Below are positions 2,657 to 59,536 of a stretch of 64,000 nt of DNA, in pieces (positions within the stretch are counted from its first letter, which is position 1; each line of letters begins with the position of its first letter). The stretch is taken from positions 11,208,694 to 11,272,693 of the forward strand of contig NC_089285.1 in NCBI RefSeq assembly GCF_963678975.1, given 5' to 3'. The position numbers and the translations under genes are program-made. The notes below the pieces were generated by a model. That model was given only the letters and a program-made list of their open reading frames with translations. It was not told the origin of the DNA and ran no database searches. Source of the DNA: Dysidea avara. Taxonomy: Eukaryota; Porifera; Demospongiae; Dictyoceratida; Dysideidae.

Positions 2657-3647
2657 TTAGACAATGTAACCTGCATGTTCAATGTAGCTTAGACAGTTAT
2701 CAACACTAACTGAGTGGTATGCTGATAGTATAGCAGTTTTGGGTGATACAGCAGAGGTGTCATTTGCTTCCAGATAATGTTTAACTTCAGCAAACACCTC
2801 TTCTATAGGGTTCAGATCTGGAGAATACGCTGGCAAAAATTTTACAAGGGCTCCAACAGCTGTGAGAAGTTCGAACACTGGATCGATGTGGTGTATAGAA
2901 GCGTTGTCCATTACTACAATTGAATTGGGGTTTGTACCATTGAACGGCATAAGTAGTGGGAGCATACACCAACGAACAAAGTCCAAGAACACATCACCAT
3001 CTACTGAACTTTCTGTAATGTATACATCCTCTACTCCATTTGTAGTAAGTACAGCTATGGAAGTGTAGCGTTTTCCACGTAGTGTGAGGGTGTAGTTTCT
3101 AGGGGGTTGTCCACGAACTCCATATCCATATTTTCTAAGGTGGTTCCTCTTGTCAAATCCGCTTTCATCTATCCATAGCATGAAGGATGGATCAAAAGCA
3201 GACATTTCAGCAATGAACTCTGCTCTTAAATTATCAGAACGTAAGGATGAAGTGATTTTTATCCACTGCCTACTGAAACCAAGGCAATGCAATGCCCTGC
3301 AGATAGTGGAGACGTGAACAATACGACCAGTATAATCAGCTAGCATTTGCTGTACTTCTTTGAGATAAATTCCAGGCTTAGAGGAAACGAGACTTATAAG
3401 GTACAGCTCTTCAAATTCACATAATACATGCAAACTCTGGACCATTTCTTTTCTCCATAGGCCGTACATCACCAGTTACGCGAAAGCGTTCAGCAAATCT
3501 GTACACCGACCTCTCACTGATCTGGAAGATTCTGGCAACCTGGCTTGTGGTAAAATTTAAAATAACGTTGAGCCAAACTATCCTCCACCTCAAGTCAGTG
3601 GAATATGCTTTTGGCATATCTATCCGGGCCAACTTCTTACTGTACAC
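2657..3647 (-). pseudogene. Tc1-like DD34E transposase, frameshifted
   Basis: Cut-and-paste transposase of the Tc1/mariner (DDE_3) superfamily. The N-terminal part (3647-3417) holds a helix-turn-helix with TSQVARIFQISERSVYRF. The catalytic part (3472-2657) has D102 in IDESGFD, D189 in VVMDN and E224 in SPDLNPIEE, giving 34 residues between the second D and the E. The two parts are in different frames and overlap at 3417-3472, so one indel separates the DNA-binding and catalytic regions; an intron is less likely because homologous sequence runs up to the shift. All three catalytic residues are intact, suggesting recent inactivation or an assembly indel. Confidence 0.85.
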
Positions 3648-15150: not shown

Positions 15151-15157
15151 AACTCTA

Positions 15158-15487
15158 TCTAATCCAAAACAGCCAAGCTGTAAAAAAACAGTACGGCCCT
15201 CAAAAAGGCTATGGTGAAAAAAGATGTGAAATCCAAGGTGGTGGCCAAGAAATGGCTGTGATGGTAGGTTAATGGTAAAAATTTTAATAATGACAATTCA
15301 GATGAATTTTTGTGCCACTTGGTCTTGGCAAAAAATTCGCCTAAATTGCCGTTATTAAAATTTTTACCATTAACCTACCATCACAGCCATTTCTTGGCCG
15401 CCACCTTGGATTTCACATCTTTTTTCACCATAGCCTTTTTGAGGGCCGCGCTGTTTTTTTTTACAGCTTGGCTGTTTTGGATTAGAT
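15158..15487. repeat. Large inverted repeat with arms of about 130 bp
   Basis: The left arm 15158-15291 (ATCTAATCCAAAACAGCCAA onward) pairs with the right arm 15351-15487. The loop is about 59 bp. It forms the left part of a composite repeat that continues into the minisatellite. Confidence 0.8.
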
Positions 15488-26658: not shown

Positions 26659-28480
26659 TCAGTCAGCCTGATTCGCTTTGGTATAAGCACTGCACCTCCC
26701 TCCTAAACTGAAAAGTCTTTCAACTGGAGCACTCGAAGGTAACACAGTATTGTACATAAGAAACAGTTTCCTTATGGCTGGGTACTTGTAAAGGAATTCA
26801 ATGCTTTTGGCACTCTTCAAATATTCATTTGCCTCTTCTTCAATGCAGTTGGCTTGTGAGCTCCCTTCATCATCATTAAAATCATAAAATGAATCCTCTT
26901 TCTTGTTCCTTGATCTTTGCAATCTTTCTTGACTTTGTGGTGTAACCTCTACTTCATCATCAGTCTGCTCTTCCATTTCATGTAAAAGCATTTGCTTGTA
27001 TTCATCTTTCAAGTTTTAGATTCTACCCACTTCTGTTTAAATTTGGGCAAAACTACTGCAGCTAAAACAGGATCTTCACTTTCAAAAAACACTTGGAAAC
27101 GATGTTTAATTGCATTTTCTATGTAACAAGCCCCATGGCCGCAGATGATAGGTTAGGTTTTACTGCTTTAATCTTCTTGATTATGGCTTTCAAAGTTGGT
27201 AGCAGTGTGCCAAAGTAGCAGTTGTCCTCACCCTGTAATATATCTAGGCCCTTAGTAAGTGGCTTGAGCACATCACAGTATTCCTTCAAAAAAGTTAATT
27301 TCTTTGTCATTGAAGCAACGTAGTCCCATTCCGGTACACAATTTGTTTAGCTCAGTAGAGGAATTTTCGGTGATCCATACCACAGCATCGTAACATGAAT
27401 TCCAACTTGTAGGAGTGGGCACCATTAGCTTTCTTTTAGCTACCTCCTCTACTTTGTCAGCAGCAACTGTAGATCTGCTTGCTTTGTTCTGTAATGCCAC
27501 ACTCTTGTCAAAGGAACTTTGGTACACACTTCTTGATAATGAAGATGATGACAATTATTTATCAACATATGTGCTAGCAATCAGGTTTAATGTGTGGACA
27601 GCACATCTCTAATGTGGTGGAAGCTCATAATGCACCTGTGTGAGGTCCTCTGTGCTTCCATCATCAACTCAAAAACAAATTCATCCTCTTCTGCATTTTC
27701 TGAATGTTCTGGTATAGCAACCTCAGTAGACTCTGGTGGTGAGATTGAATACAATGAGAACACTTTTACAAAGTTAGAGCCATTGTTGGTAATTGTACCA
27801 ACCACTTTTCCACTCAACCCATAGCTTGCATGAATGTGCTCTATTTTTGAAGCCATAACATCATAGGTGTGGCGCCTGGTTATTCTAACACAAGCAATTG
27901 CAGCTTTGCATCGCTTCAAGGTATCTTTGTCAATCCAGTGAACAGTCATTCCCAAGTAACTGCGATGGTGGACTGTCCACACATCAGCTGTTGTTGAAAC
28001 TCCATTAACTGCTTCCAGTACCTCTTTCACCTTCTTGACCATCATATCATAAATCTTTTTCAAAAGTTGGGTAAACGACTTTCGATCTGGCAACTGATAA
28101 GGGCAGACGCTGCCAATCAGTTTACAAAATGCAGGGGATGCAACTGTGGTCAGTGGCTGCAACATATTTAGCAAGTGCATTACATAATTTTGTAGAAGAA
28201 ATATCTTTCAACATTGATGGTAACGTGCACTGCCTCTTCAGTGGCTGATTATCACTGTCACCATCATTATCAGCCATTGGCCAATTATCTTTTCTCTTTG
28301 CTCCTTCAACTTGCTTTGACTCCAGCTTTACATTTTTATGAACATTCTCCAAATGCTTTATTTAAGTTGGAGGTAGTGTTCTGAGCAAATGAGAGGGTCT
28401 TGTTTCCGATACTTAACTTACAACGAACTCTGATATTCTTTTTACTTTCCTCCACTATCACGAAATGTGACCCAATTTCG
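26659..28480 (-). pseudogene. hAT transposase with BED zinc finger, frameshifted
   Basis: Cut-and-paste transposase of the hAT superfamily. The N-terminal BED finger lies around 28460-28340 (RVRCKLS, then TTSNL and HLENVH, separated by a frameshift). 28180-27587 carries SVCPYQLPDRKSFTQLL, STTADVWTVHHRSYLGMTVH (the hAT D-x-W motif) and GTITNNGSNFVKVF. 27554-27119 contains PTPTSWNSCYDAV. The C-terminal dimerisation segment (27012-26659) ends with [20 protein letters not shown] and VERLFSLGG. At least four frame changes separate the parts. Order and spacing match ZBED-like hAT proteins. Terminal repeats were not found. Confidence 0.85.
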
Positions 28481-42256: not shown

Positions 42257-43396
42257 TTAAAATCTTAATCGATCAGGGGCTCTAATCATCACTCCTGACT
42301 GGCTTCGGGCAACAACTCTGTCCTGTGATTCCTCCACTCTATTTGCTGGTTCTTGTACACTAGTCTCAGGTATTCTGTTCATTCCCTCCACCATCTTTCT
42401 TCCAAGTCTAGGTCGCAAATTTATACGATTCCTTCTCAACTGTCCACTGGGAGTTGACACTATATAGGATCGGGGAGTGGCTGCTTGGTGAACAATAGTT
42501 CCATGCACCTGGGAATTCTCTGTCTGAACCCACACAGGGGTGTCATCTGGTAATTGGGGCAGTGATTTGATGCGGTGTCGGTTATTGTAGTATTTACTCT
42601 GATCAGATTTGTATTTGCTGTGCAATTCATTGAGGTGCTGAGTATGATTCCACTGTGGTTTCGGTTGTGGGAGATCTGTTCTGATCTGACGGCCTTGCAA
42701 CAACTCTGCTGGACTAAGATTGCACCATTGCAATGGAGTAGCATGGTAACTTAGCAGCGCCATGTAAGGATCTTTTGCATTTGTAAGTAGACTTTTAATA
42801 GTACGAACTGTACGCTCTGCTTGACCATTGGCTTGTGGGTAGTACGGGCTCGTGGTGACATGGTCAAATCCATAGGCTTCAGCAAACTGTTTCATTTCCA
42901 CTGAGGCAAGACCTTCAGTGCTGGTCACTGTAAAGTACTACTAATAATAAATACTTAGGTTTAAAGGAAGAAAATCCGTCCCTCCTGGAGGAGACTGAGT
43001 GTGGCGCTCGACTAGACATTGGGTGGCCTGCAGTTCAAATCCTGGGATAGGAGGGATTTTTTTCCTTTCTTTGGCCCTTTTCTGTTTCACCTTATTATTA
43101 GCTAGGTTAAGTAATCATTTAAAGTCTCCAGTTCTTGTTAGGTTAGGTAATCCAAAGGCTGCAGCACATGTTGCTGTCAGACCTTCAGTGCTGGTCACTG
43201 TAAAGTACTACTAATAAAAAAAACTAATAAAAAATTGTTGCCCATTATCACTGATTAGTGTAGACGGGATGCCATATCTAGCAAAGATTGGCTTGAGAAA
43301 GGAAATGACACTGGACATTGTTGTGGACTGTATGTAGCTGTTGAACCTCAACAAATCATGAATAGTATTTTTTCCTTTCATGTCAAATAAATCCAT
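42257..43396 (-). pseudogene. Integrase of retrotransposon 1, split by a SINE
   Basis: DDE integrase. The upstream part (43396-43218) has MDLFDMKGKN and ISDNGQQF; the downstream part (42908-42257) has EMKQFAEAYGFDHVTTSPYY, PQANGQAERTVRTIKSLL and a C-terminal basic region with GRQIRTDLPQP. The SDNG Asp and the Q-A-N-G-Q-A-E Glu of the catalytic set are visible. A 270-bp block with a SINE separates SDNGQQF from the rest. Confidence 0.85.
42909..43217 (+). mobile_element. tRNA-derived SINE flanked by 39-bp direct repeats
   Basis: The identical 39-bp sequence (AGACCTTCAGTGCTGGTCAC onward) occurs at 42909-42947 and 43179-43217. Between them is a polymerase III-like region: A-box-like TGGCGCTCGACTAG (43002-43015) and B-box GTTCAAATCC (43033-43042), then a T run. 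This fits a tRNA-derived SINE. Confidence 0.65.
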
Positions 43397-44342
43397 TGCA
43401 ACTTTTTCCCAGGGATGGTTTGGCAGTGGGGTACTTAGGAGTGGTTCTCTCTGTGACGGAATTGTTTGTTGGCATTCTGGACATGCTTTGATAAAATTTT
43501 CAAGTGCTTTGATAATTCCTGGCCACCAAACTGCAATTATTACTCTGGATCTGCATCTCTGAAAGTCTTGCCCGTATGGATCTTTCTTAGTGTCTCAGTT
43601 TTCATGGCTGCAGGTACAACGATTCTTGAGCCAAATAATAGGAGATTTTCATTCACAGTAAGGTTAGCACGAACCTGCCAATACTTGTTTAGCTATCCAG
43701 GTAATCCTTTGTAGCTGGCAAGGCTGAAATGACAGATTGCATAAACCTCTCAGTATCAGATGTAAGTTCTTGTGTCACTGCATTTACTGGTGCTCTCGAA
43801 AGAATGTCTGCCATATACAGTGTTTTCCCTGGCACATGAGTAATTGAATATTGAAATCTCATGAGTCGTAAACGGAAGACTCTTGGTGGAAGGGAATCTA
43901 GCCATTTGTTGCCTAGTAGTGGTACTAGCGGCTTGTGATCAGTTTCAAAGAGAAATGGCTTCCCCAGCACATAATCAGCAAACTTCTCACAGGACCAAAC
44001 TAGGGCTAATGCCTCCTTTTCGATCTGTGCATAATGGCTTTCATTGTCACTGAGGCTACATGAGGCAAATGCCACTGGTTTCCACTCACGATTGTCTTGT
44101 TGCTGTAAGAGCACAGCTCCCAGTCCATGTGACGAGGCATCGGCACTGATCTTTGTCTCAGCATCAAGGTCATAATGAGCCAGAACCCGTGATGAGGAGA
44201 CTTCATCTTTCAGTTTACGGAAAGCTTCATCATGGCTTGAAGTCCACATCCAAGTAGTATTCGATTTCAACAGTTCTCGGAGAGGTTGGCTAAGCTGGGC
44301 TATATGGGGTGAGAATTTGTTGAGTTGATTAATCATACCCAT
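43397..44342 (-). pseudogene. RNase H and integrase zinc region of retrotransposon 1
   Basis: RNase H (44342-43800): ADASSHGLGAVLLQQQ, EKEALALVWSCEKFADYVLG and FETDHKPLVPLLG give the D-E-D-like residues expected. The downstream zinc-binding region (43690-43397) is broken by shifts but WWPG, CPECQQ and NHPWEKVAMD can be read in separate frames. Confidence 0.8.
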
Positions 44343-44962
44343 AAATCTCCTCAGTTCTGGGAGGTTTCATCTTTCTAATAGCCTCTGTCTTTTGGGGGTC
44401 GGGGGATATACCGTTGGCATCTATGACATGACCAAGGAATACAATTTTAGAACAGGAAAATTGACATTTACCTCTGTTAAGTGTGAGTCCAGCTGCTTGG
44501 ATCTTTTGTAAAACTGAATTGAGACGACTATCATGCTCCTCTTGGTCTTTCCCTGACACCAACACATCATCCACATGACACACAACTCCTGAAAGGCCAT
44601 CTAGTATCTCACTCATGCGACGCTGGAAGTGTTCAGGAGCGATGGTGATTCCAAAGGGAAGTTTATTGAAGCAGAACCGTCCTACTTTGGCACCATTCAA
44701 CTAGGCCATTGTTACATCAACTTTTGGCATGGGGTGTACTTCCCTCATGACATTTTCGCTCAGCGGTTTCAAATCGACACATATACGGACTGATCCTGTG
44801 GGTTTGGGTACTACCACCATAGCAGCACACCATGGTGTTGGATCATTCACTCTGGATATCACTCCTATGCCCTCCATTCGTTGTAGTTCTTGTTTTACTT
44901 TTTCCCGAAGGGGAATCGGCACATTTCTTGGGGTAAAGAGAAAGGCTTTGCAACAGGCTTAA
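44329..44962 (-). pseudogene. Reverse transcriptase of retrotransposon 1, motif A deleted
   Basis: The fingers region has GVISRVNDPTPWCAAMVVVP and GSVRICVDLKPLSE up to PKVDVTMA, then a TAG (44703-44701) and at once FCFNKLPFGITIAPEHFQ, VVCHVDDVLVSGKD (motif C, VDD) and FLGHVIDANGISPDP. The 30 or so residues with the LDxxSGFWQ motif A are absent, so the first catalytic Asp is gone. Confidence 0.85.
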
Positions 44963-47193: not shown

Positions 47194-47432
47194 CTGCAGC
47201 TGGCCTTGGGTGATCTCGTTAATAAATTTCGGTATTCATGAATTGCAGCGATGCTTTTCAAACAGTTCTTGATTTGAAATGCTATGTAACGGGTTGAACA
47301 TAGCTGACAATGGATACTTCACTTTTCAGACAATAATTGGTATAGCTGGGGTGCGCAGTGCCATTTCAGATGCAGTATGCATGGGTTCATCAGTCATAAT
47401 AAAATTATTTACAAAAAAGTTAATAAACAATT

Positions 47433-47691
47433 ACACGAACAAATTTGGAATTTTCAACTACAGTAGGGACCATAGCACATCGATAAAAGTACTGAAACAT
47501 TGGAGTAGTCCATGATATTAAATCACAGTAAAACAATAAGAAGTGTCTTATTGTTTTACTGTGATTTAATATCAGTGTCTTATTGTTTTACTCTGATTTA
47601 ACATCATGGACTACTCCAACTTGTTTCAGTACTTTTATTGATGTGCTATGGTCCCTACTCTAGTCGAAAATTCCAATTTTTTCGTGTACTT
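47433..47691. repeat. Foldback repeat with arms of about 110 bp
   Basis: Left arm 47433-47540 and right arm 47579-47691 are inverted copies. The loop holds an extra perfect copy of the arm tip (CTTATTGTTTTACTGTGATT at 47547). Confidence 0.85.
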
Positions 47692-47818
47692 GTGATCAAT
47701 GAAATACCCATGAAAAAATGATCAATAAAACACCCATGAAATAATGGTCAATGAAATACCTATGAAAAAAATGATTAATAAAACACCAATGAAATAATGA
47801 TGAGTAGAATACCCATGC
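47692..47818. repeat. Tandem repeat of about 32 bp
   Basis: Four to five imperfect units of TGATCAATGAAATACCCATG separated by A-runs. Confidence 0.75.
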
Positions 47819-47824
47819 CACAGT

Positions 47825-50090
47825 GTGCGAAATAACAGTCGGTCACCAGACAGTTTCCGGAGATTTTTGGTACGTGTCCGGATAAACTCTGATTTGTTCG
47901 GAAATTATGTCAGGACAAACAAAACAAAGAGTTTTAACAAGAAGAACTGTAGGATTGTCGAGAATGACAAAGACTTGGACACAACTGTTTGGCTGAAGTA
48001 CGATGTCATCAAAGATGACCGCGAGCACATGTCAAATCTGAAGTGTGCCGTCTGTATTCAGTTTAGCAAATGGTTAGTTTCACTTCGAAATTACAACCCA
48101 GCGTTTATTAATGGCTCCAAGAACACTAGAACATCAGACTTCAAGGACCACGCAGACACGGAGATGCACAAGCACGCGATGTCCTTGTACCAGAAGCAGC
48201 ACTCAAAAAATATTTGTGATTACGTGCCAATTGCTAAAGTATTGTTGCAACCATCGATGGACGAAGCCACCAAGCGTAAGTTGAAGAATAAATTCGAACT
48301 AGCTTATATGGTAGCGAAAGAAAACTTATCTTTAAAAAGATGAAGCCTCTATGTGATATTGAGGAGAAACACGGAGTAGAGAATGAAGCTAGCTACCGGA
48401 ATGATCATGGCTGTGCCTCGTTTGTGGAAACCATCGCTGCAGATCTACAAGGGAAACTGAAAGAGAAGATGAGTAATGCTATGTTTTTCTCGTTGCTGTT
48501 GGATAGTAGCACTGATTGCAGCAGTGTGGAAGAAGAGTTATTTTAGCTCTTTTCTTTGATCCATACAGCAGTGCTGAGGAAGGTACAGTGCATGTTAGAG
48601 ATGAGTTTTTTGAAGTACGTCACCTTGCATGTGGGACTGGAGAGGGTTTGTATGGCTGTGTGAAGAAACCTCTGATGTACATGGGAGTAGAATGGAGGAG
48701 TAAGATGGTAGGGCTAGGATGTGATGGCACCAATGCTAACATAGGAAGTGATAGTGGTCTTAAGAGTTACCACCTGAAAGACATTCCATGGTTAGTTGTT
48801 TCCTGGTGCTTTGCCCACTGGCTGGAATTGTCCATTAAAGATGCTTTGAAAGATACTTAATTCAAAGAAATTTATCAGCTGTTGTTGCAGATTTACTATG
48901 TCTATGAGAAGTCACCTAAAAAGTGCCATGAATTGAATGAGATCGTCGACAACCTGAAGGAGTGCTTGACAGAAACAGAGATGCCTACGAAAGGAGGTAC
49001 TAGGCCACTCAGAGCATGTGGAACAAGGTTTGTTTCTCACAAAGTGGCTGCATTGGCATGGTTAATTGACAGATACGAATCACCTAACGATGTTGTCACA
49101 AGACAGAAAGTCAGGTCAGCTGATTGAGAAAAATTAGAGAGCTACATTTTACGATGGAGAAAGTCAAAGGTTTTTGTTAGCCTGTGCATTGTTTCACGAT
49201 GTTTTAAAGCTTATCGGAATACTCAGCAAAATATTACAAGAGGAGGAGCTGTGCATTGTAAGGGCTATTGAAGCATTCTTAGGAACAAAGAAGAGTCTAG
49301 AGGAATTTAAAGTGAAGAATTTCCAAGACTTTCCAACTGTCAAGAAAGTTCGAATTGAACAAAAAGAAGCCTCCAGTGGCAGCAGTACAACTGTCACATT
49401 CCAGGGTACTGATTTGCACTTGCACCCACAAACACTTTCATCTTTGAGTAAAGATTACAAAGTCTGGTTCAATGATATAGGTAAGTGTCTGGTTAGTAGG
49501 ATGAAAGCTCAAGATGAAGAATTGGTCCTTTACACACATGCTACACAAGGCTGGGAACGAATGACTTCTTTCGGGTATAATTTATCAGGGGCATTTTGCC
49601 ATCGCTTTAGTATGCCTTTAGAGAAGGCAGACATTGATGTTTCCACTGTTCAGGATGAATGGGATGACATGGTCCTGTACAGCAAGCAATACCTAAACCT
49701 TGTACAAAATGACTACAAGGTTATCTGGTGGAAGTTGCTTAATTCTGTTGATGCGAAATGCTGGTGTAATGCATTAGGCGTTGTTGAATTATTGTTTTGC
49801 CTTCCTGTCTCAAATGGTCACCTAGAAAGCATCTTCTCACAGTTGAAGAAAACAAACATGACTGCCGTACTCATCTATCTGAAGACCGACTTGATCAATT
49901 TGTACGAATCAAGGTTGACAGCCCACCTGTTGAGAAGTGGGATGCCTCCAATTCCCTAAACATCTGGTATAAGGAGAAATCTAGAAGAGTGACCGCTATA
50001 CCAAGAACTTCCACTAGCAATGCATCAGCACATCAGTCAGCCTCAGGTGATGATGATGACCATTTTCAATGGATTAGTGGAAAAGCATGA
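47825..50090 (+). pseudogene. hAT-like transposase of the ZNF862/KIAA1586 type
   Basis: The N-terminal zinc-finger-like region has CAVCIQF and FKDHADTEMHKHAM. The catalytic region has SLLLDSSTDCSSVEEELF (about 48490), MVGLGCDGTNANIG (48700), VSWCFAHWLELSIKDALKD (48800) and LRACGTRFVSHKVAAL. The C-terminal part ends GHLESIFSQLKKT and, shifted, EDRLDQFVRIKVDSPPVEKW. Reading changes frame at about 48340, 48535, 49130 and 49850, with a TAA at 48858-48860. The arrangement matches hAT-derived zinc-finger 862-like proteins, which are repetitive in many invertebrates. The first codon of the open frame is GTG, so the true start is not defined. Confidence 0.75.
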
Positions 50091-50159
50091 CCTGGACATT
50101 GACCTGTCTCTATTTGATGCCTCCCAGTCGTCATCTGACCTCTCACTTCCTATCGATTT

Positions 50160-50577: not shown

Positions 50578-51500
50578 GATTTTAACTTCAAATAAAGCTC
50601 AGCTCATTAAGTGTGACAGCATAGTACAGTAGGAAAGCACCAAAAATTCCAGCTCAAAATACAGAGGTGCCCCACTATTCTAATTAACTGATCATGTGAT
50701 ACCTGCTACAAGACGTTTTGGGGTGTGCCTTACGAAATTTTATTGAAAAAGTCTGATCAGCAGGCGGAAGGTTAGAGTTGAGAGGTCTGGTATTCACAGT
50801 GCATTTGCAATGTAATACTCTTTAGTTTTGCAGTTGTTGTACATTATTTGGATTGGGCCTTAACCTGCCGTATTTGTGCAGCTAAAGGCGTAGACTCATA
50901 ATGAAGCATTCATGTGGTGGGTGTTAAATAGAAACTACACATACTAACATGTCTGCCCCACTGTGCAAATCGTTTAAAATCATGTACAAGTTGTTAAAAA
51001 GCAGTTTTATAAGTTGGTGTGTTGTATATCTTCCCACAACAAATAAATACAGCCTCATTATATTATTACTAAGTAACACACTCAAATGAAACATTCATGT
51101 AGTGGGTGTTAAATAGAAACTACACATACCAACATGCCTGCCCCCAGAGGAGGGTGGTCATGTTCATGTGATGCATATTGAAATGTACGAGATACTGTTT
51201 TTGTAGCTGTGAAAGCAAATCAAACATGCGAACAGTCCAATGAATCGTTAAACCCCATTCAACCCCATAATAAATACCACTGCAGTGTACGTGATCACGG
51301 AATGGCTGACCGCAAGGAAAATGATGAGAAGTGATTCTAAGCAAAGACATGCTGAGGAATTTGGTTTCCAAGCATCCGAGAAGTTCACCAACTAAATATG
51401 CACCACATTGAGAGCAGAAGAGAGTTTCATTGTGCCAATATGAGCACCAAGATGTTTATACACAAGTGTGGACGAAGGAAGTAGTAATGTGAAAGAGATG
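50578..51500. other. No gene; 65-bp direct duplication
   Basis: CATTCATGTGGTGGGTGTTA through AACATGTCTGCCCC at 50904-50964 recurs at 51089-51145 with few changes. Confidence 0.6.
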
Positions 51501-52449
51501 TGGTACAATGATGAAATTAGGGCTCTGTTGAATTTATGCTGTTTCATTCATCTGGTGAGCAATGGCCATCTCATAAGCAAACAGTATTTTGGAATACTGC
51601 TGGGGAGCTTGTGAAGGAAAGATCAGGAAGCACTCAGTGTATGCTTCTGTGTATATCTTGTAGTCAGATGGTTAGCAAAGAAATACAAGACACCAAGAGA
51701 AGCTAAAATTGTCTATTTTGGACATCAGTCATCATTTCACTGCCACACAGTCAGTGATACTCAGACTGATTCATCAGATGTGTAAACAATAGTCCATCTC
51801 TTTAAACAATTGTCATTAGAGTTACAGCTGCAGGTATTGTCAAGTTTATTTTTGGATTATGTTTCTTCTAAGTTCAGATTTTCTGTGCCTGATGATGTCT
51901 ACAGTATAGTGCAAGTGCAATGGCAAATCTGAGACATAATTCCTGTAGCAACATTCTTTATAATCTTGCCAAGGGTTTGGGGACTCCAAGAACAGATGGC
52001 AGTGACTCTAGGTTTCATGTTAAAAGGATGCCTATAGGTTTAATTGAATACACAGCAAAATTGTTTTCTTTTTATTATAATTTGCAGTCGGTAAGTACGC
52101 ATATTGTTAATCTGTATAGCTATACAGATGGTAACTTTTGCAGGTTTCATGTCCATAAGATTATTGTTTGTCCATGTATTGCCATTTTGGTCAGAAGTGA
52201 ATACATTCCGGCCCTGTAAAGGGAGTGGTGCATTCTGTCCAGGAACGTAGCAACAAGCAATTTTATCCACACTAGAAATACACAGTGGAGGTACACAGGG
52301 CAGGATGCATAGCTGTAAATATAAGTCTATTTTTATTAGTAGAATCACCATTACATTTGATATTCAAGTGCATATTATAGCACCATGTTACTGCTGGTTT
52401 TATTAATGGAATAATTGAATAGGTAACTGTCATTGAAGAGGCAGCAAAG

Positions 52450-52517
52450 GCCCATCCTAATTTGTAGTGGTGGCTTAAGGGATCTCCCTTAAGCCACCAC
52501 CACAAATTAGGATGGGC
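52450..52517. repeat. Near-perfect 68-bp palindrome
   Basis: GCCCATCCTAATTTGT and its continuation pair with the inverse ACAAATTAGGATGGGC, closing on GATC with one mismatch. The arms are exon sequence (NLWWWLKG) duplicated in inverse orientation. Confidence 0.9.
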
Positions 52518-52767
52518 GATCTCAATAAAGGATTAAAGGAATCAGCTAGGGGTCAGTGGAGTGGAGATGTAGATTTTAATGATGGTAGTCTGCATATGCA
52601 ATATAAGAGCTACAGGACCAGACTAGAAGTTGCTGCAAATGTTGGCCTGAAAGGAGGGTGCCTTGATGTGGCAAAAAATGAAATATCAAAGGATCTACAT
52701 ACAATATGTAACATCAGGTTAGAGGAAATTTGCATAAATGCATATCATTAATATTGTTGCTTGCCAA

Positions 52768-53250
52768 CACAGAGTACTCAGAGAAGGTACAATAAGATGT
52801 GAACAGGCAAAAGGATATGGCTAGCTTAGCATGGAAAATCAAAGAGCTCAGCGAGTTGAATGAACAAATAAGAACCTTGCATTTAACAACTGGTGTTCTC
52901 TCTGCAAAGCTTACCATAGAGTGCAGGTGGATCGAAGACAACATTCCCAGTCTACTAATGGACATTCGTAAACAGCTGGCTGTGTTTATCAAGGGTGTTA
53001 CTCGTCATCACAGAGTACTCAGAGAAGGTACAATAAGATGTGAACAGGCAAAAGGATATGGCTAGCTTAGCATGGAAAATCAAAGAGCTCAGCGAGTTGA
53101 ATGAACAAATAAGAACCTTGCATTTAACAACTGGTGTTCTCTCTGCAAAGCTTACCATAGAGTGCAGGTGGATCGAAGACAACATTCCCAGTCTACTAAT
53201 GGACATTCGTAAACAGCTGGCTGTGTTTATCAAGGGTGTTACTCGTCATC
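52768..53250 (+). repeat. Perfect 241-bp tandem duplication of an exon
   Basis: Copies at about 52768-53008 and 53009-53250 show no differences by eye. The unit starts ACAGAGTACTCAGAGAAGGT and includes the whole KIKELSELNEQ exon. 241 is not a multiple of three. Confidence 0.9.
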
Positions 53251-53393
53251 AACATACCCCTGCAACACATGTGTTAGTTAGTGTTCATGATAAGTAATGA
53301 AGAGAGGGACAAGAAGCCAATTTGCACTGCCTGTCCAATACATACCATAAAAGGGTTTGTCAGACTAGATGGTTTGCCAGCTTGCTAACAAGA

Positions 53394-53960
53394 TTATTCA
53401 TGAAATGAATTCCAAAAATATGAAAGTTGCAGGTAACTGGTGGGTGGTCTAAAAAGACTAGAAAGATCTATAGAAATGCCCAGAGATGGTGTTCCCCCGT
53501 TAGGTCCATTATCATCACTTGCACTATTGTTACCATCGGCTGTCCCTGTCTCATCCTGGACATCAACATCAGCTGTCCCTGCCACGTCCTGGACATCAAC
53601 ATCAGCATGCTATTGAAAAACTGAATCAAAAACTGTTCACAAGCACAACTGGAACATACCTCCGTGCTCTCAATGTCAACATCAGCATCCTATAAGAATA
53701 AACTTATTTACAAGTGCTTACAAAACAATAGGAACATACCAGTTGCTGTATTTCACTACTCATAACACCAGCTTCTAGGGTTTCTTGGCAAACCTAACAA
53801 ATTAAGTAGTAGCTATATATGGTGAACAAACATATTATTCACATACATCGACATTAGCCATCTGTTCCACCTCCCTGTCATTGTCACTGTGGACATAGAC
53901 TGAATGCACACACGTGATTGCTGTACACGCTCACCTACTTATGCACGTTACACAGGTTTG
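53394..53960 (-). other. Possible minus-strand acidic exons
   Basis: The minus strand encodes Asp/Val-rich repeats (TADVDVQD twice, 30-bp unit at 53535-53600) and short acidic blocks (DNDREVEQMANV near 53880, ETLEAGVMSSEIQQL near 53775) separated by intron-sized gaps. These could be first exons of an acidic N-terminus. No domain and no downstream gene were found. Confidence 0.25.
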
Positions 53961-55202: not shown

Positions 55203-55566
55203 GGGGAAGTCATCTAAACAACTAATTTTTGTAGTGAGAGGTCTCAAAACCAACTTATTAGGCCTTCCAGCGATAATAACTCTCAATTTGGCAGCCAGAG
55301 TTGATGCCACTACAGATTGTACTTCAATGATCCATGAGAGTTTTCCTAGTATTTTTGAAGGACTGGGGAACTTGGGAGAGCCATACTCTATTAAGCTTAA
55401 ACCTGACATGCATTGTTTACAGCAAGGAATATTTCACTACCACTCCAGACGAAAGTTCAAAGCCAGCTGGCCGCAATGGAGAAGCAAGGAGTAATCTCTC
55501 CAGTCACGGAGCCAACCCCCTGGTGTGCAGGGATGGTAGCAGTTCCCAAGAAATCTGGGTCAGTTC
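55203..55566 (+). pseudogene. Reverse transcriptase N-terminal part, retrotransposon 2
   Basis: QLAAMEKQGVISPVTEPTPW and MVAVPKKSGSV lead to the insertion point at 55566. A frameshift lies near 55430. Confidence 0.8.
55558..55566 (+). repeat. Target-site duplication, left copy (GGTCAGTTC)
   Basis: Identical to 59528-59536. Confidence 0.9.
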
Positions 55567-55767
55567 CAGAGGAGGACGGAAACTATCTCACATGACTCGA
55601 TGTTTTACATTGTGAACTTAAAACCTCTGTCTTATTACATAGAAGTAGCATAAACAGGAACATTGATTAATCACAAAACCAATCATACGATTATCCCCTT
55701 TCATCCCCAACATATAAAGGGTTAAATTGTCCGTTAAAGGTTTGTGGGATCACATGAGTGGGAATAA

Positions 55768-58753
55768 ATGGCTCAATTGAATTGCGCGAGATCTGTGACA
55801 CCAGTCCAGGATCACGAAAACTGTTGTGACGAGAGTTTGTCTGTCGGTAAACGACCTGGAGGTTCTCCTACAGGCTGTACTCCTATCAGGCAACAGAAAA
55901 GAATTCCGTTGAGACGCCTGGCAAACCATGAGACCCAGCAAGAAGCTCAGGAATCACCTCGAGATGAAATATCCCTGCAGTTTCAGTTGAATTCAGTAAT
56001 ATTGCAGCCAAGAACGCTGATCGGCTCTGTTCAAGGTGCTGCTAACACCACCCGTGACTCCAAAGAGAAATGGACGGAGAAAGAACTGAAGGCACTTGCA
56101 GAATTCATCCTGTTCCACAGCACACCAGGTGAAAAGTGGCCAGCAAACAAACACCAGGAGTTCTGGATCAATGCCAGTAAATTCGTGAAACAAAGGGCAA
56201 ACACACCAGGTGTACGCAGAAGTGGTACGTTGCAAACCTGACTGATCCCCAAAATTCACTTAAACATCTTTGTTACAGTTAATGCTCTTCGAAGCAAAGT
56301 TACAGGATGGCTGGCTAAGAGGTATTTGCAGTTCTGTTTATTCATATTCTAAGTTTATGTTAAAATAATATCCAAGGTACAAAACACCTAAGGATGCAGA
56401 AACTTGGTGCTGTGCAGAGTCTGTTACTATTGCACAAGTGTCAGCATCTCCAGCTCGTACGGTACAATCAGAAGGTGTACAGACAACTCCTGTCGATTTA
56501 GCTGTCACATATTCAACCAGCTACAAACAGAATGTCAGCTAGCAGCTTTATCAGAACTGTTCTCAACCTACATGAGTCAGTTTTCACTCACAGTTCCTGC
56601 TGACTTTCTGAGCAATGCTGCAAATGCAATGGTGCGGCTATCAGATGCTGGAAGAACAAATGTACTGTATAACCTTGCTAAAGGGATAGGAACCCAAAGG
56701 CTGGACAAAAGTGATTCCCGATTTCCTGTCCATCACATGCCCATGGGGCTAGTTGAATACATCACACAGTTTTTTGCTGCTGATAACTTACAGCAGGTAA
56801 ACTAATAACAGGATTGATGTTTTGCTAGATTTATATTAAACCCTGGTATCTTGCCCATCAGATTACCGTTTGTGGCAACAGACGATGTACAGCCACTTTG
56901 GGCAGAAATGGGTTAGACTACATCGTGGCCCTATGTGGTGTACAGTGCCATCAGCTCAGGACTCAGAAGGAATGTGTTTTAGTACATCTCGGAGTCAGAA
57001 GACTATGGAGGTATTGCCGCTTGCCCATATGGGATACATTCTTATGTGCCCATTTTGTAGGTTTTAGTTAATATACCTGCTGTTTCAGAGAGGTCCTTGA
57101 GGTACAATTTTTCAATGAGTGACACGACAGTAGACTCTCGAATACAGGTTTGTCGCACTGCTTGACCTGTGACATAATGACATATTGATTAATAGCTAAC
57201 AGTTCTTGATGAAGCTGCTAAATGTAATGTGGGGGCATGGTGGTGGTTAAAAGCAGACGGATGCGACATTGTTAAGGGACTGAAGGAATCCACCAAGCTC
57301 CAGTGGAGCGTAGATGTGGATTTAGCTGATGGAGCCCTTCAGAAGCAGTACAAAGCATACCAACAACGTTTAGATGTAACAAAGGCAATGGGGCTTAAGA
57401 GAGAAAGCAGAGTGCAGGATTTGACTACAGCTTTAAGCTCACTCAGTAAAGATCTGGAGTTTGTTCAATCTGGTATGCATTCTAACATGCATAGTACCTA
57501 ACCATTTAATCACCTCTTTTGCAGAGTTGATCAAATTCAATAATATATATTCAGAGAAAACTGTATCTCCAAGGAAGAACGAGAAGGAAATGGTAATTTT
57601 AGCCTGGAAAATCAAAGAGCTGACTGAGCTTAATGAGACAGGGAGGCAGTTGTTTAGTGAGATAAAACTTTTGAAAGATAAGATCCAGAGGGATAACCTA
57701 GAAACAGAAGGTAATATTCCAAGCCAGTTACAATCAGTACGGCAAAGGCTAGTCACTTTAATCAAGGGTGTGACTCGACATCAGCGTGTTGCAGCTTCAC
57801 ATATATTGGTCTTTATGATCAGCACAGAAGAAAGAAGCCATATGCTATTCCTGTGCAATGCATGCCTTACCATGGAATGACTGACTCTAAAGTGCGTGAT
57901 CTTGCCAATTCCATAATTAGTGAAATGGCCAAAAGAAAAATGAATGTAGCAGGTAGCACTGTATTTTCTGTACAACAGCTAGCAGACACATGCCTTTAAT
58001 AGGATTTACGACTGATGGCGAGTGGAATTCGTTGCGCACTAAGGGAAACTCAAGACCATTGTCTGTGTTCCAGATTTGTGCTGATGCTAGGTCAAAGTAC
58101 AGCCATATGAGTGTGAAGAGAATGGTCGAAATGATCACACCCATAGTAGTAGAGAAACTTTGATAGCTCTAGTAGCTATATAGAGTCTCGGGAATGGAGA
58201 AGAAATTTCAACATCATAAATGGCATACCCCCTGAGCACCCAAAAGCAAGCACCACCAATGACGTGGAATGTTTTTTTAGTCTTTTGCGGGATACGGTAG
58301 GAAAGGATTTCACTCTGAAAGAGGTATGTATAATATTTGTTTATTATGTAACTTTGTGTATAACAGTTGCAGCTCTACAAATTGTACAATTTTGACTTCC
58401 TTTTTTTTTACAATGGAATATAGGTTTACTATGGATGGAGAAAAGTGACTGAAGAGTTTAAGAAAAGAATTGACCCAAACTTGCCCTTTTTTTACCACAC
58501 CTCTACACACTCCAGATTTTATGAGGAGTTAATGCCGGATTTCAGTGTCCAAAATCCTAAGAAGGAAATGAAGCGATTACCCAGATACGAGCTGTTAGGA
58601 GCCAATGACAGTCAAGTCACTATGTCTGTGCGCGGTGATACTTCAATTCGCACAAAGTTTCATAATGTTCCTATTAATCTTCCACCACCACCAGGAACCA
58701 ATCCATGCCTTTATGAACACTCATATGCTCACAATTCTACAACAAATCAATAA
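55768..58753 (+). pseudogene. Plus-strand gene of the two-gene transposon, transposase-like
   Basis: ATG at 55768; first intron starts at 56227. Blocks in order: KALAEFILFHSTPGEKWPAN, WLAKRYKTPKDAE (exons 56278-56320 and 56378 on), VRLSDAGRTNVLYNLAKGIG with MPMGLVEYITQFF, QTMYSHFGQKWVRLHRGPMW (exon near 56870), WWWLKADGCDIVKGLKE, a coiled-coil-like LAWKIKELTELNETGRQL ending IKGVTRHQR, PYAIPVQCMPYHGMTDS, GFTTDGEWNSLRTKGNSRPL (58002 on), EHPKASTTNDVECFFSLLRD, and a final exon 58425-58753. The D in TTDGEWNS and D/E in STTNDVE could be catalytic; that is a guess. Frameshifts near 56500, 57830 and 58160 disable this copy. AATAAA overlaps the stop. Confidence 0.7.
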
Positions 58754-59394
58754 AAGATTTTACAGCAACATTACAAGTGTATACTTCAAACATATTCAGT
58801 GTGTCAACTGGGGGAACGGCAACTGCCTTTTTTACAACATATCCAATTCTTTTCCATTCTCCATCATCAATTTTACAAATAAATGCTATAGCAGGATTTC
58901 CATCCTGAAGTTTCTGTTTGGCGAGTTTTAACTGGTCCTGGTATGCTGTTTCTTTGTGCGCCCCAATACATTAAAAATCACAGTATGAGTGATGGCTGGT
59001 ATGTTATCATCCTCTGATTCTGAGGTGGTCTGTGATACAGAAATGACATCAGGAGTACAGCTGCTGCTGTGTGGGATTGGTGAGGGTGATGGGGACATAC
59101 TAGGAGTATCGTTAAGCCAAGTCCACTGCCACAATACAAACAGATCTACCAAATTCTTCCAAACTAACTTACATTAATTATAAAAGCACAGTCGTAGTTA
59201 AATGGCACATGGGCAATAGCAGGCAAAGGATGATCAATATTCGGACAGCTCCTAGCAAACCCATCGAAAACGTGGATTTCAGGGGGTAATCCTTCGCAAT
59301 ATTCTTCCCACTGTAGTTTAACCTCCACCAGCTCGACTTTAACGACTGGGAAGCTTGCAACAATGTAGTGGATGGTGTCTCCTTTCTTTAGCAT
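58737..59394 (-). pseudogene. Minus-strand gene of the two-gene transposon, HIRAN-like tail
   Basis: ATG at 59394. Exon 1 (to 59173) encodes MLKKGDTIHYIVAS and FDGFARSCPNIDHPLPAIAH. A 47-bp intron (59172-59126, GTAAGT...GGCAG) keeps the frame. Exon 2 begins WTWLNDTPSMSPSPSP, runs through an acidic Ser-rich linker, shifts at a GGGG run near 58955, and ends with PAIAFICKIDDGEWKRIGYV and a TAG at 58739-58737. The N-A-I-x-F...W-x-x-I-G-Y-V pattern resembles HIRAN domains, DNA-binding modules of helicases and nucleases. The stop overlaps the plus-strand gene's end by 17 bp. Confidence 0.55.
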
Positions 59395-59527
59395 CGTTAT
59401 TTCGACAAAGTCGTCGTGGTCACCGTCTTCACCACACAGCCCTCTGCTTCGGCCATTTTGGTATTCAAACTATTCAATTAACATTTATTAATTTTCGTAG
59501 CGCTTGTATCGTTTCCGTCCTCCTCTG

Positions 59528-59536
59528 GGTCAGTTC
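59528..59536 (+). repeat. Target-site duplication, right copy (GGTCAGTTC)
   Basis: Identical to 55558-55566; RT coding resumes directly after it. Confidence 0.9.

Follow-up and report, generated by a model that had tools for sequence, protein, structure and literature searches.

The 3961-bp element at positions 55567 to 59527 of the 64-kb Dysidea avara window (the whole stretch of DNA analysed here) is a genuine bounded DNA transposon that carries two genes and is now defective. It is probably a defective copy of a cut-and-paste DDE transposon whose RNase H-like core is related to that of the P-element/THAP9 transposases. The likeliest kin of the element is the P/THAP9 group, not Mutator, with several P hallmarks absent, and it is possible that the element represents a new transposon lineage.

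Ends, insertion site and genes

A sequence-only reading of this DNA had reported perfect 17-bp terminal inverted repeats (TIRs), a 9-bp target site duplication (TSD) and an insertion point within a reverse transcriptase (RT) motif whose frame is restored on excision, and all three were recovered at the positions collected in Table 1. When the flanks of the element are joined with a single copy of GGTCAGTTC, they form one open frame that runs through ...VAVPKKSGSVRICVDLKRLNESVLREVYPLPKVDHTLA, which we take to be the RT motif of Gypsy-type elements. Downstream of the element, the host retrotransposon matches the RVT_1 and RT RNase H models in Pfam, and upstream it encodes a zinc-knuckle protein; the insertion target is an old Gypsy-type retrotransposon. 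Inverted ends, a target duplication and a clean empty site are consistent with a cut-and-paste mode of integration with a stagger of 9 bp. The TSD length of 9 bp is that of the family's single measurable insertion. An 11-bp pair, GCTGTACTCCT, lies 308 and 467 bases from the element ends, with ~0.09 such pairs expected by chance by our own estimate (4^11 possible 11-mers against 600 x 600 positions); the subterminal inverted repeats of the P superfamily measure 11-12 bp.

Table 1 Features of the element, its insertion site and the second family member (positions in the 64-kb window)
Feature	Positions	Strand	Details
Second family member	51145..53435 (end approximate)	+	diverged and truncated; carries the same gene behind the 5' tip CAGAGGAGG; lacks its 3' end
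Left target site duplication	55558..55566	.	GGTCAGTTC
Left TIR	55567..55583	+	CAGAGGAGGACGGAAAC
Plus gene, exon 1	55768..56224	+	starts at ATG, MAQLNCARS...; common to the second copy
Plus gene, exon 2	56279..56321	+	flanked by GT..AG introns (54 bp, 55 bp); both joins in frame
Plus gene, exon 3	56377..56796	+	frame break near 56530; join to exon 4 out of frame
Plus gene, exon 4	56862..57010	+	
Plus gene, exon 5	57061..57147	+	
Plus gene, exon 6	57196..57472	+	KADGCDIVKGLKES...DVDLADG
Plus gene, exon 7	57525..57952	+	a stretch that looks helical by eye, followed by the beginning of the putative RNase H-like core; reading frame broken near 57835
Plus gene, exon 8	58003..58145	+	GFTTDGEWNSLR, within the PF21787 match
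Plus gene, exon 9	58184..58323	+	STTNDVECFFSLLRD; join to exon 8 out of frame
Plus gene, exon 10	58424..58753	+	runs to the stop
Minus gene, second exon	58737..59125	-	frame break near 58961; stop 58739-58737
Minus gene, exon 1	59173..59469	-	donor at 59172
Right TIR	59511..59527	-	CAGAGGAGGACGGAAAC, perfect 17-bp inverted repeat of the left TIR
Right target site duplication	59528..59536	.	GGTCAGTTC

The plus gene was modelled as ten exons between 55768 and 58753, with canonical splice sites, the reading frames and the second copy as guides. Eight of its nine GT..AG introns are 48-100 bp long and the remaining one is 38 bp, and the frame is kept at seven of the nine exon joins, the out-of-frame joins being those across 56797-56861 (exons 3/4) and 58146-58183 (exons 8/9). 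Sequence may have been lost at 58146-58183, where the putative intron is the one of only 38 bp. The two out-of-frame joins and two frame breaks make this copy defective, and the plus gene of the main element cannot make its protein. The earlier description of a complete transposon therefore holds for the ends but not for the plus gene, which is broken by these frame breaks and joins. The same description was right in seeing a DNA transposon with defined boundaries and a multi-exon gene of unfamiliar kind.

The presence of two genes, also claimed from the sequence, is supported, though the minus gene carries frame breaks as well. It lies tail-to-tail (convergent) with the plus gene and has a 47-bp intron after 59173; in its exon 1 the first ATG, at 59456, opens a different frame, and the ATG of the long frame is at 59394. 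No match beyond chance was found for it in Pfam, NCBIfam or the PDB. Its second half is, by our own impression, reminiscent of HIRAN domains; these three databases gave no match to support that identity, none is claimed, and the literature searched yielded nothing relevant on HIRAN together with transposons. The convergent minus gene might have an accessory role. Similar unnamed proteins may exist in marine animals.

A second family member

The second member shares its 5' tip with the main element: the window has exactly three copies of CAGAGGAGG, two at the ends of the main element and one at 51145, and three or more were obtained in 0 of 100 shuffles. The left border of the second member is sharp, because its start directly abuts a 65-bp stretch (51080-51144) that is repeated with 92% identity about 185 bp upstream, at 50894-50959. 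The 9-bp left flank of this copy, GCCTGCCCC, has no downstream repeat, even allowing one mismatch. Its right end, the part that could have carried the minus gene, is gone.

Joined by hand, the proteins of the two copies are about 46% identical, which, with the same 5' tip on the same gene, indicates a long-standing association of gene and end. Across the ungapped blocks picked by the analyst (185 codons in all), the copies show 62 differences at first, 50 at second and 121 at third codon positions, and 60 of the changed codons are synonymous and 82 are not. In the three longest blocks (157 codons) dN was 0.38, and dS was not computable (returned as -1). Because the copies differ mostly at third positions in the compared blocks, they are members of a family with a real gene, the third-position excess being the mark of a protein once under selection. 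Within the second copy, a tandem duplication of about 250 bp (52755-53251; 98.4% identical, offset 241 bp) covers part of a transposase exon, and a 68-bp near-perfect palindrome (94%) lies at 52450-52517 in the equivalent of exon 6.

Comparison with P-element transposases

The 451-residue middle of the plus protein, joined with X at the two frame breaks, matched PF21787 (TNP-like_RNaseH_N, the N-terminal part of the P-element/THAP9 RNase H) with an E-value of 2.5e-4 and 21.8 bits, below the cut-off of 24.6 bits. It was the only one of the five proteins given in the joined Pfam scan to match this family, and among the 24,736 Pfam models scanned PF21787 was the only one that the joined readings matched below E 0.05. 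A 116-residue core, which was trimmed after the first match was known, scored 24.8 bits (E=2.9e-5; profile positions 63-130 of 137) and passes the cut-off by 0.2 bits; an 88-residue subset of this core scored 16.2 bits (E=0.013), and these two overlapping proteins were the ones that matched PF21787 among the four given in that scan. The match spans a frame break bridged with X, and the matched core excludes the doubtful exon 3/4 and 8/9 joins. None of the ten controls (one reversed and nine shuffled cores) matched PF21787 at E up to 1.

The motif TTDGEWNSLR closes the matched stretch, at the place of the second catalytic Asp in these enzymes. The earlier reading had proposed looking for an RNase H-like core that contains the Asp of TTDGE, and the outcome is positive but marginal, TTDGE falling inside the PF21787 match; by these profile comparisons, a P-like core around TTDGE appears supported but marginal. 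The GFTTDGEWNSLR stretch of exon 8 holds the candidate second catalytic Asp, exon 6 may be the region of the first, and the DVE of STTNDVECFFSLLRD in exon 9, an exon with no Pfam match, might supply the catalytic Glu. The N-terminal domain encoded by exon 1 looks Myb/SANT-like by eye, and exon 1 gave no Pfam match beyond chance.

We read the plus protein as a DDE transposase because of the marginal core match together with the long association of the gene with the ends. By analogy, such a protein would bind the element ends through its N-terminal domain, a role that could fall to the product of exon 1, and its RNase H-like core would excise the element and join it to target DNA at positions staggered by 9 bp. 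Repair of this 9-bp stagger would leave the GGTCAGTTC duplication.

Several results speak against kinship with P. No PF21787 match was found in Pfam when nine pieces of the two genes were scanned one by one, a scan that left out exons 2, 4, 5, 8 and the first part of exon 3 and in which four other families appeared at E 0.017-0.042, taken as chance; nor was one found with the exon 6 piece alone or with the 404-residue joined protein of the second copy, which lacks most of the core. BLOSUM62 alignments to Drosophila P transposase, the residue letters of which were confirmed against 6p5a, did not rise above shuffles: among 1000 shuffles for each region, as high a score was reached by 162 for the core, 101 for exons 9-10, 39 for exon 6, 954 for the exon 8 tail and 937 for exon 1, and the best alignments miss the homologous sites. 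PDB searches at E up to 10 returned no P transposase, each giving a single chance-level chain (E 1.4 and 1.1) that is not a transposase. Nor does an E-value near 2.4e-4 settle identity, because the zinc-knuckle protein of the host retrotransposon reaches a similar, sub-cut-off value on another family (a zf-PHD-like model, E=2.4e-4). Of no weight for this question is that PF21787 was matched in two of 14 control genomes, never over the cut-off, and HIRAN in one, with 0 matches to either in a plasmid record. Viral and prokaryotic contig collections gave no relatives, which means little because they are unlikely to hold animal transposons.

The likeness of the element to the P superfamily (Drosophila P, Galileo, zebrafish Pdre2/THAP9) consists of a marginal PF21787-type RNase H-like core and, with Pdre2 (CATACCTGTCAAC), a short TIR starting with CA. 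Unlike members of that superfamily, the element has a second, convergent gene and, ahead of the core, roughly 130 residues that look helical by eye. Its N-terminal pieces matched no THAP domain in Pfam, and no Pfam match to the GTP-binding insertion domain was found; about 70 residues separate the candidate second Asp from the candidate Glu, in contrast to 228 residues in P (D303-E531), a difference that has perhaps come about through a deletion. The [C/D](2)H motif after beta5, a signature of the P superfamily (PMC8230255), was not found by eye in exon 8, and the TSD of 9 bp is outside the 7-8 bp range given for the superfamily in the literature. Because the THAP domain, the GTP-binding domain and the [C/D](2)H motif were not found and the TSD is 9 bp, we do not file the element as a P element.

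These features could, tentatively, be those of a distinct lineage in animals that is the sister group of the P superfamily. It would combine an RNase H core of P-like type with an N-terminal DNA-binding domain other than THAP, a 9-bp TSD, ends that carry CAGAGGAGG and a second gene convergent with that of the transposase; we hold this to be possible rather than probable. No described P-like lineage or lineage with a 9-bp TSD was recognised as this one in the literature searched, and the passages of PMC5753468 consulted yielded nothing on P relatives with 9-bp duplications. P elements are unusual among transposases in that they need GTP and make long staggered cuts. If the sister lineage were real, the GTP-binding and THAP domains would not be basic to P-type chemistry. 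A relative that is P-like in its core, and in which neither a GTP-binding nor a THAP domain can be detected, would help to tell which parts of the machinery are original. The element would also help to classify otherwise nameless multi-exon animal genes.

Alternative readings and neighbouring elements

The missing THAP and GTP-binding matches, the lack of a [C/D](2)H motif by eye and the 9-bp TSD, together with the marginal PF21787 score and the absence of a pairwise signal to Drosophila P, would also suit a separate DDE superfamily with no special kinship to P, whose PF21787 match would reflect the general RNase H-like layout of strands, a helix and a strand bearing the Asp. We consider this rather unlikely, in that the joined readings singled out the P-type RNase H, alone below E 0.05 in the whole of Pfam, and the reversed and shuffled cores did not match it. 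More doubtful still is a non-autonomous element that carries captured host genes and depends on a transposase from another locus. The presence of two multi-exon genes, broken in both cases, and the lack of a strong transposase match would suit it, but the second member shares both the 5' tip and the gene with the main element, at a protein identity of about 46%, and the core resembles RNase H. The sequence-only reading had been pointed to Mutator by the length of the TSD, and 9 bp is indeed the duplication length of maize Mu (PMC2774946). That length was the whole of the pointer; neither the separate pieces that were scanned nor the joined readings matched a Mutator or MULE transposase model, and the 17-bp ends are short against the ends of about 215 bp of maize Mu (PMC2774946), which makes a Mutator (MULE) element highly improbable. 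The missing matches to Mutator and other transposases count as a weak negative, because of nine other frames in this transposon-rich window four likewise went unmatched in Pfam at E 0.01, including two that look like hAT by eye.

Other known groups were compared with the element. hAT elements make 8-bp TSDs, and hAT was rejected on the lack of a Pfam match and the 9-bp TSD. The TSD of the RAG-like (RAGL) group is 5 bp, which differs from the 9 bp of the element, and no RAG model in Pfam was matched by the joined readings. The element is like RAGL in having two convergent genes, one of them a transposase in the RAGL case (PMC7204232). KolobokP was set aside because its TSDs, 3-5 bp long, are unlike that of the element.

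By its short-intron gene and its retroelements the window looks like animal DNA, perhaps that of a sponge or cnidarian. It also holds other sequences of mobile-element type. On the minus strand, 2657-3475 contains an open 272-residue frame of a Tc1/mariner- or IS630-like transposase (PF13358 DDE_3, E=1.3e-24). Transposase remnants that are hAT-like by eye lie at 27587-28207 (-) and 48600-50100 (+), where neither of the open frames given, 27590-28207 and 49138-49956, was matched in Pfam at E 0.01. What is left of a second Gypsy-type retrotransposon occupies 42257-44366 (-), with RT RNase H matched in Pfam and an integrase-like frame, recognised by eye, unmatched there. Long palindromic stretches at 15157-15487 and 47427-47693, 91% and 86% self-complementary, are possibly foldback or MITE-like elements.
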